A DNA stretch of 64,000 nucleotides from Acidobacteriota bacterium (GTDB lineage: Bacteria > Acidobacteriota > Terriglobia > Bryobacterales > Bryobacteraceae). The stretch is from assembly GCA_025350695.1 (NCBI GenBank), contig JANXXI010000386.1, positions 62,001-126,000 of the forward strand. The letters run 5' to 3'. A program made the translations under genes and the position numbers. The notes under the pieces were generated by a model that saw only the letters and a program-made list of their open reading frames with translations, did no database searches and was not told the origin of the DNA. The number at the start of each line of letters is the position of its first letter. The stretch's first letter is position 1. Shown here piece after piece: positions 15,367 to 18,137 of the stretch.

Positions 15367-16293
15367 CTAGAAGCGACCGCCTATCAGAGCTTCAAGAAAG
15401 GCTCTTTCAAGAGTCCAGCGGCCAACCACCTTCTTCGTCTGGCGGTCAAACTTGCCGTGAATCAGAATGCTGCCCAAATCAGCTGGCCCTGGCTTCTGTT
15501 TTGCCCGCTCCAGATATTTGCGAAATACGTCGGTCACTCCTTGCAGTTGGCTCTCCAGGGACACCGCTGCCGATTCAGTAGGACAGTACGCTTCAAGAAT
15601 AGCTTGCGGCGCGCCGCCGGCAGCTGTGATTGAAAAAACCGTGGAATCAGCTGCCTCCAAAGCCTTGGCGAATAGCTTCGTTCCATCCGGCAGATCGGCT
15701 GACTTTTGCCAGTAAGCGCGCGGGGCCATCATCCACAGCGGGGCATTTGGAATTTCATAGTTTACGGCTCCGGTCTGCGGTCGCATCAGTGCGTATGCGG
15801 CTTGTTCATCCTTGCTGCTGGCCCATCCCACAACGTTTTTCCGTAACGGCACAAAGGAAACAAAACGTTCCCCCCGGTTGCTGCTAAGACTGCATAGGCC
15901 GTTGTAGCATCGGCCTCCATGCACAATAACGTAATTTTTCAGCGCTTGAAAATCGAACCTTCCGACTGCCAAAGCATATCGGTCTTCCCCCACCAAGGAG
16001 AGAATCACTTGATCCAAATCGGTCCGATAGTCAAACGCCGTTTCGTGAACAAATCGGCGATACTCTTCCTCTTCAACAACCGGTGAGCCGGCGATAACGC
16101 TAAGCATTTCCGATGCCTTTAAACTTCGGAAATCCACTTGGATAACCAGCCCGTCCCCCTTCGGTAAACGGTCGTAAAGATCATTTGCCGAAGTAGGAGA
16201 TCGAAACCGCCAATAGTAGACGGTGGATAATGCCACGGTCACAAACAGAACCAGCCCCAGAAACAGAGTTCTGATTTTCCAATTTTCACTCAC
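15367..16293 (-). CDS. Single-pass membrane-anchored protein of unknown function
   Basis: A 308-residue protein starting at GTG with GGAGG nine bases upstream, so the start is well supported. A signal anchor (TLFLGLVLFVTVALSTVYYW, ~8-27) precedes an extracytoplasmic domain containing LPKGDGLVIQVDFRSL, two nearby cysteines (RCYNGLC) and GKFDRQTKKVVGRWTL close to the end. I recognise no domain; the pattern of an opening 'LYDRLPKGDGLV' resembles anchored proteins seen in acidobacteria, but that is a recollection, not a match. It sits 21 bases after aroF and 3 before the pfkB-type gene. Confidence 0.7.
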   Translation of the reverse strand: MSENWKIRTLFLGLVLFVTVALSTVYYWRFRSPTSANDLYDRLPKGDGLVIQVDFRSLKASEMLSVIAGSPVVEEEEYRRFVHETAFDYRTDLDQVILSLVGEDRYALAVGRFDFQALKNYVIVHGGRCYNGLCSLSSNRGERFVSFVPLRKNVVGWASSKDEQAAYALMRPQTGAVNYEIPNAPLWMMAPRAYWQKSADLPDGTKLFAKALEAADSTVFSITAAGGAPQAILEAYCPTESAAVSLESQLQGVTDVFRKYLERAKQKPGPADLGSILIHGKFDRQTKKVVGRWTLERAFLEALIGGRF

Positions 16294-16314: not shown

Positions 16315-17364
16315 CTAGGCCGGCACTGCCACCCCGGCTCTCGACGCTTTCCAAAGTTGGATGTACGGTTCCAGATCTTTCATCATCGCGTGGTATTGAG
16401 GAATGTCCAGGGATTGGGCGCCATCGCTGACGGCCTTGTTCGGGCACGGATGAACTTCTAAGATTACGGCGTCGGCCCCAATTGCCACGGCCGCTCTGGT
16501 CAATGCAGGCACCAAGCTCCGTTTTCCCGTCGCATGGCTGGGGTCAAGAATTACCGGTAGGTGCGTCATTTCATGCAATACTGCCACCGCGACAATATCA
16601 CAAGTGTTACGCGTCACGGTCTCAAACGTGCGGATTCCCCGTTCACAAAGCATCACGTTAGGATTGCCATGCGCCACAATGTATTCCGCCGACATCAATA
16701 ATTCCTTGATCGTTGAACTCAATCCGCGCTTCAGCATGATCGGCCGTTTTGATTTCCCCAGCGTTTTTAGCAAGGCGAAATTCTGCATGTTGCGCGCGCC
16801 GATCTGAAGAATGTCGGCATAGTCGCCAACTAAATCCACATCCCGGTCCGACATTACTTCGGTGACAATAGCCAGCCCCGTCAAATCGCGCGCCTTGGCC
16901 AGCAGCTTCAATCCTTCTTCTTCCATTCCCTGGAAATCGTAGGGAGAAGTGCGCGGCTTAAACGCGCCGCCCCGCAGCACTCGCGCACCGCCTTTGGCTA
17001 CTTCCTCGGCCGTTTCAAGAATCTGCTTTTCCGATTCCACCGAACAAGGGCCAGCCATCATCACAAACTCATCGCCGCCAATTTCAAGCGGGCCGCGTGG
17101 TGTGTTGATCCGGATAATCGTCTTGGTATCGCGAAACTCGCGGCTGACGAATTTGTATGGGGCGGAAATCCGCATAGCTTTCTCCACTTGGGGTAACGCT
17201 TCAAGCGACTCCAGGCAATTGGTGACATCTCCAACTCCAACCGCGCCTATCACGCAACGTTCCTCCCCTTCAATGGCATGAATCTTATATCCATGCTCAC
17301 GGATATGTTCGCAGACTTCTTCTATTTCAGCCTTGGTGGCGTGTAATTTCATTGAGATGATCAT
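16315..17364 (-). CDS. aroF: 3-deoxy-7-phosphoheptulonate (DAHP) synthase, type I-beta
   Basis: A 349-residue enzyme condensing phosphoenolpyruvate and erythrose 4-phosphate, the first step of aromatic amino acid synthesis. The N-terminal ~75 residues form the ferredoxin-like regulatory domain seen in Thermotoga-type DAHP synthases ([15 protein letters not shown], then [11 protein letters not shown]). The catalytic barrel has [58 protein letters not shown] and [13 protein letters not shown]. All metal- and substrate-binding segments appear intact. The start ATG at 17364 follows an aromatic-rich leader peptide and terminator hairpin, so control by attenuation is likely. It is the first gene of a five-gene operon. 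Confidence 0.96.
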
Positions 17365-17395
17365 AGCGTCTACTTTCTTCGACTCCCTTAGGAGT

Positions 17396-17426
17396 AAAAA
17401 TAAAAACCCACTCGCTCGAGTGGGTT
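17396..17426 (-). terminator. Attenuator terminator hairpin upstream of aroF
   Basis: Perfect 10-base inverted repeat: AACCCACTCG (17426-17417) and CGAGTGGGTT (17414-17405) in minus-strand reading, so about 8 bp after allowing a real loop. It is followed by TTTTT, one A and TTTTT down to 17396. It stands 32 bases before the aroF start codon, not after a gene, and downstream of a short aromatic leader reading frame. This placement is that of an attenuator rather than an end-of-operon terminator. Confidence 0.82.
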
Positions 17427-17456
17427 GGTTCAGAACTTTGCTTCAAACGGCGCCAA

Positions 17457-17465
17457 CGCCACTCA
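17457..17465 (-). promoter_or_regulatory. Anti-terminator arm overlapping the leader stop codon
   Basis: The bases TGAGTGGCG, which begin with the leader peptide stop codon, repeat the GAGTGG of the terminator's 3' arm. They can pair with CCACTC (17423-17418) in its 5' arm. A ribosome resting at this stop codon would hide the segment and let the terminator form. A ribosome stalled on the aromatic codons 15-30 bases upstream would leave it free. The pairing is visible; the role is inferred. Confidence 0.55.
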
Positions 17466-17519
17466 GGTTTTTGGTAGGGACCAAAATCGAAACCAATAAT
17501 TGGACGCGACGGGCAGCAT
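17463..17519 (-). CDS. Aromatic leader peptide of the aroF operon (18 residues)
   Basis: An 18-codon reading frame giving MLPVASNYWFRFWSLPKT. Five of six consecutive residues from 8 to 13 are aromatic: Tyr8, Trp9, Phe10, Phe12 and Trp13, the three end-products of the pathway whose first enzyme is encoded next. Codons 12-13 lie in a 7-bp hairpin (TTTTGGT with ACCAAAA, 17486-17469). The stop codon is part of the anti-terminator arm, and a terminator with a T-run lies between this frame and aroF. A weak AAGGG lies 15 bases before the ATG; a promoter-like TTGCAT with TACACT just upstream could also give a nearly leaderless peptide. No homologue search was possible, so expression is inferred. Confidence 0.7.
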   Translation of the reverse strand: MLPVASNYWFRFWSLPKT

Positions 17520-17771
17520 GAACTCAAAGTGTAACCCTTACAGTTCGCGAAATGCAAGCTTTTTTTCAAGGAGAACTAACCACCTGCGCGTGGTGACAAT
17601 CAGCCAGTTAACGACAACTATTGTAGCTGACCTAACACGGTGTGAACCCACCCATCTCATTGCATATATTTGAAATTCCCCGCGTTTTTGCCACCCACAC
17701 TTGCCCCCATCAACCCGCCGGCTAAAGTGACACGTCGGCCACCTGTTTTTTCATGCGCTTTTCAAAACCAG

Positions 17772-17777
17772 TACAAT
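17772..17777 (+). promoter_or_regulatory. Probable -10 element of the DUF1844 gene
   Basis: TACAAT, five of six matches to the sigma-70 -10 consensus, lies seven bases before the ATG at 17784. No good -35 is present at 16-18 bases. If it is used, transcription would begin at or very near the start codon, giving a leaderless or nearly leaderless message. Confidence 0.35.
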
Positions 17778-17783
17778 AGAAAG

Positions 17784-18137
17784 ATGAGCGAGTCCAATTT
17801 TCCTCTACCCCCTCCAACTTTTGAGTTCCTCGTTGTCAGCCTCAAGATGCAAGCTGAAATGCAGCTCGGCTTGCTCAAGTTCGGCGACGATCAGGATAAG
17901 TCGGAAGTCAATATCCAGGGCGCCCGTCACACCATCGATCTGCTTGCCATGATCCAGGAAAAGACAGTAAATAATTTGAGTTTGGATGAGAAACGGCTGA
18001 TCGACAATTCCCTCACCGAGCTTCGATTTCGATTCATACAAGCCGGTAAATCCGCTGCTAGCGAAACCACAATTGAGGATGCTATCGGCGACAATTCCCA
18101 CGACGAGCCCAAAGTGGATGGCGCGGCCCAGGCCTAA
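17784..18137 (+). CDS. DUF1844 domain protein
   Basis: A 117-residue cytosolic protein of the DUF1844 family: FEFLVVSLKMQAEMQLGLLKFG, then ARHTIDLLAMIQEKTVNNLSLDEKRLIDNSLTELRFRFI, ending in an acidic Ala-rich tail. The family is common in acidobacteria and some other phyla and has no established function. I chose ATG 17784 because the conserved domain begins shortly after it; an ATG at 17670 would add a 38-residue proline-rich stretch that looks non-coding and would run over the probable promoter. It is directly followed by the MBL-fold gene with no gap, so they share an operon with ribF. Confidence 0.82.
   Translation: MSESNFPLPPPTFEFLVVSLKMQAEMQLGLLKFGDDQDKSEVNIQGARHTIDLLAMIQEKTVNNLSLDEKRLIDNSLTELRFRFIQAGKSAASETTIEDAIGDNSHDEPKVDGAAQA

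Follow-up and report, generated by a model that had tools for sequence, protein, structure and literature searches.

Does a short reading frame rich in Tyr, Trp and Phe codons that lies ahead of the DAHP synthase gene aroF serve as the leader peptide of a transcription attenuator, as a preliminary description of this acidobacterial DNA had suggested, or is the gene controlled in some other way? The window, i.e. the whole stretch of 64,000 nucleotides that was analyzed, holds the parts expected of an attenuator: an open reading frame with aromatic codons, a terminator between this leader and the gene, and an antiterminator that engages the left arm of the terminator (Table 1). The leader frame comprises 18 codons, from the ATG at 17519–17517 to the stop codon TGA at 17465–17463, and its direct reading agrees with the described Tyr, Trp, Phe, Phe and Trp at positions 8, 9, 10, 12 and 13. 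The stop codon is embedded in TGAGTGG, the left arm of the terminator contains CCACTC, and the pairing proposed for these two motifs turned out to be the real core of the antiterminator. The latter is longer, however, since GAGTGGYGTTGG and CCAACCCACTC form 11 instead of 6 base pairs, with one bulged base, and it shares an arm with the terminator. The first two bases of its 5′ arm, segment 2, are the last two of the leader stop codon. The hairpin and U-run noted ahead of aroF are likewise present, but the stem consists of 9 pairs rather than ten; it closes a loop of 4 nucleotides, is followed by TTTATTTTTA and represents the sole terminator-like site in the scanned region. Upstream of the aroF promoter region, a gene for a DUF1844 protein (17670–18137, plus strand) is oriented divergently from aroF. 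The named relatives of the DAHP synthase protein identify the source of the DNA as an acidobacterium.

Table 1. Features of the aroF leader region in the window.
Feature	Position	Strand	Basis and remarks
Candidate operator palindrome TCACC-N8-GTGGT	17579..17596	-	Pattern match upstream of promoter
Predicted -35 element TTGCAT	17552..17557	-	18-nt spacer to -10
Predicted -10 element TACACT	17528..17533	-	Ends 8 nt before leader ATG
Leader peptide ORF MLPVASNYWFRFWSLPKT with stop TGA	17463..17519	-	Read directly
Control codons Tyr8 Trp9 Phe10 Arg11 Phe12 Trp13	17481..17498	-	Direct read
Segment 1, CGTCGCGTC, within leader codons	17503..17511	-	Folds; can pair with segment 2, weakly in the window
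Segment 2, GAGTGGCGTTGG, antiterminator 5′ arm	17453..17464	-	Pairing, covariation
Segment 3, CCAACCCACTC, partner of segment 2 or segment 4	17418..17428	-	Pairing, covariation
Segment 4, GAGTGGGTT, terminator right arm	17405..17413	-	Whole hairpin 17426–17405
Terminator U-run TTTATTTTT	17396..17404	-	Direct read, terminator scan
aroF, DAHP synthase (3-deoxy-7-phosphoheptulonate synthase) with ferredoxin-like N-terminal domain	16315..17364	-	NF006421, PF00793, PF18152

Very probably, these parts constitute a ribosome-mediated transcription attenuator upstream of aroF. The transcript would begin with the leader ATG or immediately ahead of it, and the leader would be translated by a ribosome that follows the polymerase. 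A shortage of charged Phe-, Tyr- or Trp-tRNA would stall this ribosome at codons 8–13, where it would cover segment 1 and leave segment 2 free to form the 2:3 helix before segment 4 is made; the terminator would then be blocked and aroF transcribed. With plentiful Phe, Tyr and Trp, the ribosome would instead proceed to the stop codon and, as this codon overlaps the beginning of segment 2, cover this segment, whereupon the 3:4 terminator could form and transcription would end near 17396. The hairpin by itself is unremarkable, as shuffles of the terminator region contain a mean of 0.6 terminator-like sites, and the weight of evidence is carried by the relatives. The fold of the leader RNA in the window reaches a z-score of -2.52 against shuffles, with 1 of 200 shuffles being as good.

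A DAHP synthase match was obtained in 146 of the 150 genomes of the family. The orthologue set comprises the 124 upstream regions of the best matches, with at least 63% identity plus four at 53–54% (L007, L125–L127); G111, with just 43 nt before its match, was excluded, as were 21 further genomes that had lower matches only, among the matches listed. For the leader counts, two upstreams (L025 and L107, with 47 and 113 nt) were dropped, leaving 122, and dinucleotide-preserving shuffles in 20 rounds served as background. A leader with at least five aromatic codons in a window of eight codons precedes 73 of these 122 orthologues, compared with a shuffled mean of 0.4 and a maximum of 1. At a threshold of at least four aromatic codons, the count rises to 93 (shuffled mean 5.25), and at least six are still found in 34 (shuffled mean 0). 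Strict terminators lie upstream of 91 of the 124 orthologues, and a leader with at least four aromatic codons is combined with a strict terminator in 80 of 122, representing 42 of 65 genera. Among these 80 leaders, Phe occurs in 80, Tyr in 75 and Trp in 71. The earlier proposal that one leader reads all three aromatic amino acids thus holds for 66 of the 80 leaders scored, but not for the remaining ones.

Other DAHP synthase genes provide the controls. Second copies that are 51–55% identical showed leaders in 0 of 11 cases at all three thresholds (at least four, five or six aromatic codons) and strict terminators in 0 of 11. Likewise, leaders with at least five aromatic codons were found in 0 of 20 upstreams of other copies (L269–L288, i.e. 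19 from other families and the second copy of the window genome), and one of these 20, a long open reading frame in L288, reached at least four. A search with the leader DNA alone gave matches in 8 of 41 genomes, including that of the window itself; hence, conservation of the leader becomes visible only via the gene. In the window genome, no aromatic leader was recognized by eye in the 250 nt upstream of the prephenate dehydratase gene and of a TrpE/PabB-like gene, and no trpE was found above its cut-off. This absence says little, because the upstream stretches look at least partly coding for the preceding gene and trpE was not found over its cut-off.

Covariation was followed in two alignments. 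The first (A1) consists of 67 rows picked for a good 2:3 duplex, so that its 96.3% paired positions in helix 2:3, compared with 32–46% upon sliding the partners by 1–3 columns, are a biased figure; it shows 22 double-changed cells in this helix versus 5.0 in shuffles. The second (A2) was generated with a model that was itself built from A1 and holds helices 1:2 and 3:4 only, not 2:3. Its search set combined 94 of the 124 family loci with L142, L148, L158, L162 (the locus of the window itself), L171 and L184, while 30 loci had been omitted by eye (no or doubtful leader, too little sequence, or near duplicate). The best 97 of 111 matches, one per source, became rows, and 14 were dropped as antisense, repeated or weakest (including L034 and L112). 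Helix 2:3 is 92.3% paired in A2 and displays 34 double-changed cells, a count reached by 0 of 500 shuffles (mean 10.4, maximum 19). Helix 1:2 is 86.9% paired with 27 double-changed cells versus 9.1 in shuffles, in an alignment fitted to this helix, and helix 3:4, also part of the model, has 51 versus 17.7. Covariation in 1:2 and 3:4 hence leans toward the alignment model, and 2:3 in A2 is the better test. Since the rows are kin, none of these cell counts is a count of events.

A more demanding pattern follows from the architecture. As segment 3 pairs with both segment 2 and segment 4, the switch must change in three places at once. Such joint changes in segments 2, 3 and 4 are indeed found, namely U-A-U to C-G-C in L086, L101 and L111 (genera g42 and g43), and A-U-A to G-C-G in L079, L087, L103 (g67) and L119 (g57). 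The rows concerned are related and therefore stand for a few events, not seven; segment 1 has retained its ability to pair in them. In the family, segment 1 carries the motif CGCCARCTCG, whose partner in segment 2, with a single bulge, is CGAGYGGCG, and the leader codons before the aromatic run commonly specify Tyr-Ala-Ser/Asn-Ser. Much of the non-aromatic conservation of the leader in this part is thus structural, as segment 1 pairs with segment 2. Segment 1, which lies within the leader, completes the 1:2 / 2:3 / 3:4 attenuator in the family, with a pairing that is weak and not dominant in the window. Altogether, the comparison with relatives that the preliminary description had called for, namely a search for retained aromatic codons and for covarying pairs in the two helices, came out positive, and the leaders of the orthologues, the covarying helices and the joint changes in their arms support its candidate attenuator.

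How the position of the ribosome may steer these helices was modeled for 77 of the 80 sequences by folding what remained once the RNA had been cut away as far as 12 nt beyond the first base of the codon in the A site. Before segment 4 exists, the computed probability of 2:3 averages 0.46 in ribosome-free RNA, compared with 0.88 for a ribosome stalled at the first aromatic codon and 0.26 for one with the stop codon in its A site (n=77 each). The stalled state exceeds the stop state by more than 0.1 in 66 of 77 sequences, with the reverse in 2 of 77, and exceeds the ribosome-free state by the same margin in 42 of 77. For the window, 2:3 is part of the best structure with any of the five aromatic codons (8, 9, 10, 12 and 13) in the A site, and the 5′ arm of 2:3 is covered with the stop codon in the A site. 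Once segment 4 is present, the terminator is 1.3–3.9 kcal/mol better than the antiterminator at equilibrium in the window, even with a stalled ribosome, and read-through would therefore depend on the order of folding. Without a ribosome, the terminator fold (-35.7 kcal/mol) and the antiterminator fold (-35.1 kcal/mol) of the window are so close as to be ambiguous, and the best structure includes 2:3 until segment 4 is made; given this and the family mean of 0.46, termination by default is not clearly built in. The distance between the stop codon and segment 2 varies as well. The stop precedes the segment by 1–3 nt in 36 of 77 sequences (1 nt in the window) and by 5–16 nt in 32 of 77, where a ribosome at the stop masks segment 2 less well, and it lies beyond the segment 2 start in 9 of 77.

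The region upstream of the leader bears on how its translation starts. A -10 hexamer precedes the leader ATG in 77 of 79 sequences (shuffled mean 30) and ends 8–10 nt before it in 58 of these 77; a -35 element with at least four of six matches accompanies it in 64 of the 77. Shine–Dalgarno-like tetramers, as raw counts without shuffles, occur at positions -16 to -5 of 2 of 79 leaders and at positions -20 to -5 of 65 of 79 aroF genes. From the spacing of the -10 element and the missing Shine–Dalgarno sequence, the predicted transcript start coincides with the leader ATG or lies only a few nucleotides away from it, which suggests that the leader is translated from a leaderless transcript. Leaderless genes have been predicted for three acidobacterial genomes, at an average of 13.3% (PMC3160421). 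In Sinorhizobium meliloti, the 5′ end of the trpL transcript is the leader ATG (PMC7298713); the arrangement considered here would be similar, with a leader frame at the transcript start, although its 5′ end is a prediction and trpL belongs to a trp gene of an alphaproteobacterium.

A palindrome upstream of the aroF promoter offers an alternative to attenuation. The pattern NCACC-N6-9-GTGGT occurs in 32 of 135 upstreams (shuffled mean 0.78), a denominator that includes 11 paralogues, 0 of which have it. ACACC-N5-9-GTGGT, a narrower form that excludes the site in the window, is found in 24 of 135 (shuffled mean 0.14). Single-nucleotide shuffles were used for these counts, as well as for those of the promoter, the pairing at the Arg codon, the -10 elements at aroF and the leaders in outside phyla. 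Upstreams with the palindrome include those of the window, L022, L045, L054, L070, L078, L085, L095, L104, L105, L109, L110, L114, L117 and L118. The palindrome is possibly the operator of a regulator of the aromatic pathway. Conceivably, a DNA-binding regulator at CACC-N8-GTGGT could even be the chief control of aroF, with the attenuator being minor or decaying. Besides the sites in the window and in the other upstreams, genomes without the leader lend some credit to this idea.

By the looser criterion of at least four aromatic codons, the leader is missing from 29 of 122 orthologue upstreams. Among the 33 upstreams without a strict terminator, 15 carry a -10-like TAnnnT that ends 5–13 nt before aroF (shuffled mean 5.7, maximum 12 in 200), compared with 0 of the 80 upstreams having leader and terminator. 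In these 15 genomes (L022, L045, L070, L073, L078, L085, L092, L095, L100, L104, L105, L109, L114, L117 and L118), aroF itself may be leaderless, as judged from this spacing. The palindrome is present in 12 of the 15, where it starts 86–100 nt ahead of the aroF ATG, much like the 87–89 nt between its start and the leader ATG in seven genomes with the attenuator. The pattern looks like a loss of the leader with retention of the promoter, a direction of change that we infer, and genus g65 includes both states (leader with terminator, and -10 element at aroF). Of the other 18 upstreams without a strict terminator, 13 still have a leader with at least four aromatic codons (L020 and L052 being doubtful); the strict terminator test thus undercounts. 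Against the regulator as chief control stand the combination of leader and strict terminator in so many genera, the similar leaders in other families and the presence of the site, by the same pattern, in only 17 of the 80 attenuator upstreams. We grant this alternative a small chance. Genera that lack the leader and show a promoter-like element at aroF provide natural pairs for asking what the attenuator buys.

Further alternatives concern the leader peptide itself. The core of an aromatic residue, Arg and another aromatic residue could act as a dual sensor that combines starvation for Phe, Tyr or Trp codons with a contact of the nascent peptide, on a transcript that starts with ATG and is loaded by 70S ribosomes. 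Read-through into aroF would then report the aromatic supply together with the state of leaderless initiation, yet this reading appears slightly less probable still than the preceding one. Very unlikely is a purely peptide-based arrest, in which the same core stalls the ribosome via the exit tunnel, possibly by sensing free aromatic amino acids in the way that the leader peptide TnaC senses tryptophan, and the RNA only relays the signal. In 74 of the 80 leaders, an aromatic residue follows a conserved Arg, for which the codons CGA, CGG, CGC, AGA, CGT and AGG are used, and the motif recurs in other families as FRFW, YRFW and YRFT. RNA pairing was considered as the sole reason for the conserved Arg codon, and this was only partly borne out, as a helix of at least 5 bp involves this codon in 28 of 71 leaders versus 12.7 in shuffles. 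By contrast, the distance from Arg to the stop codon scatters and peaks twice, at 6 codons (18 of 71) and at 9 codons (20 of 71), whereas a single main peak, at 29 nt (23 of 71), marks the distance between the Arg codon and segment 2. As the latter looks steadier, RNA geometry is favored over a tunnel contact. Moreover, Phe, Tyr and Trp interchange at several positions, which suits the reading of codons.

The terminator might also be constitutive and the short frame incidental, or the hairpin might merely insulate aroF from upstream transcription. The frequency of chance hairpins with a U-run given above would allow for this, but the enrichment of leaders, the covarying helices and the joint changes in shared arms speak against it, and an always-on stop between a gene and its own promoter would be useless; we consider this explanation scarcely credible. 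A T-box riboswitch or another tRNA- or ligand-binding leader can practically be dismissed, since the T-boxes that precede the same gene in four Firmicutes-type loci (L204, L210, L253 and L265) among 16 scanned have no counterpart in 17300–17700 of the window, where RF00230 gave no match at E ≤ 5.

Ribosome-mediated attenuation, as favored here for aroF, has well-studied relatives. The attenuators of E. coli pheA and trp comprise a leader peptide, a stop codon at segment 2 and mutually exclusive 1:2, 2:3 and 3:4 helices. The leader peptide and the helices recur in the system described here, in which the placement of the stop codon relative to segment 2 is variable. It differs from them in the target gene, in the three amino acids, in that most leaders of the family have no visible Shine–Dalgarno sequence, and in the Rfam matches, which are not significant: for 17300–17700, Phe_leader (RF01859) scored 19.7 bits, below the gathering score of 55, and Trp_leader gave no match at E ≤ 5, a search in which an irrelevant viral family did match. 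In Corynebacterium glutamicum, the aroR leader precedes aroF and contains Phe-Tyr-Phe, and stalling under Phe limitation is reported to enhance transcription (PMC11802643, PMC4046766, PMC3890552). Both systems thus place an aromatic leader peptide upstream of a DAHP synthase gene. Unlike aroR, with its short Phe/Tyr cluster and its origin in another phylum, the leaders described here mostly combine Phe, Tyr and Trp, and we class the two as alike in their way of working. Attenuation was also hypothesized for E. coli aroF, as mentioned in a study (PMC8632094) whose entry on uORFC-13-1 describes a computational candidate upstream of aroF in Acholeplasma with 24 representatives, otherwise from unknown environmental sequences. 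This candidate shares with our locus an upstream frame (with at least one Phe codon) beside a terminator before the same gene, whereas the leaders observed here form a family, are rich in aromatic codons and come with an antiterminator that covaries.

With regard to the phylum, a 2010 survey states that hardly any of the attenuators it predicted for phyla like Acidobacteria could be linked to a function. To its authors' knowledge, Proteobacteria and Actinobacteria were the only phyla with demonstrated leader peptide systems before their own Firmicutes case, the atypical ermC leader aside (PMC2965389). In keeping with the preliminary description, we found no account of attenuation of this gene in acidobacteria in the open-licence literature. 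The kind of attenuator is therefore known from trp, pheA and aroR-aroF, while this family and its occurrence in this phylum appear to be new. For Acidobacteriota, this would be an attenuator of the leader-peptide type whose switching helices are backed by comparison among relatives. It concerns the first step of the shikimate pathway, at which a single leader can take all three end products into account. The ferredoxin-like domain of DAHP synthase is allosteric, and the attenuator would add a transcriptional layer to the gene of an enzyme with such a domain.

The spread of the element extends beyond the family. When 299 genomes of the class were searched with a covariance model, 141 gave a match at E ≤ 0.001, a count to which weak matches in family f11 contribute. 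Among the best 30 matches, aroF lies downstream in 28. Family f6 accounts for 12 of these loci, with aroF downstream in 10 and, in an eleventh, the first 21 aroF codons before the contig ends. For 20 further loci, aroF was found in 17 (f7 11/11, f8 2/2, f3 1/1, f6 1/1, f1 2/3, f11 0/2), or in 15 of 17 outside f1. The two weak f11 matches that were examined (E 1e-7 to 1e-3 for f11 among the matches listed) and a second weak match in an f1 genome have no adjacent aroF and were treated as chance. Leaders with at least four aromatic codons in eight occur in 11 of 12 loci of f6, 11 of 11 of f7, 2 of 2 of f8 and 0 of 1 of f3, as exemplified by MVFAYASSFGYRFWGFTPKR (f6) and MIRNAYSYWFRFWVPPK (f7). 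Among the named relatives, leaders of this type are carried by, for instance, L190, a Bryobacterales genome, and L197, an acidobacterium labelled gp2.

Elsewhere, among 68 named loci with enough upstream sequence, 5 leaders with at least five aromatic codons in eight were found (0.35 expected), and 7 with at least four (3.15 expected). The former five (L221, L230, L233, L235 and L264) belong to Pirellulales, two Clostridia-type bacteria, Lentisphaerae and Acholeplasma. These leaders in outside phyla may represent separate origins of the same control, and the one from Acholeplasma probably corresponds to the published uORFC-13-1 motif. Taken together with the T-boxes of the Firmicutes-type loci, these leaders suggest that the kind of leader RNA controlling the DAHP synthase gene differs between phyla.

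Two genomes of genus g61, L185 and L186, deviate in the enzyme. Their DAHP synthase match starts only at residue 72 of the window protein, and by eye the frame of L185 seems to be without the ferredoxin-like domain. Nevertheless, inspection by eye shows an aromatic leader, SYRFWYWYF, and a hairpin with GCCCACTC ahead of the DAHP synthase in both; the automatic leader count missed this leader because the upstream sequence was trimmed. The gene 3′ of aroF in the window (15367–16293, minus strand), for which no Pfam or NCBIfam match was obtained at E 0.001, resembles, again by eye, the gene that follows aroF in L185.
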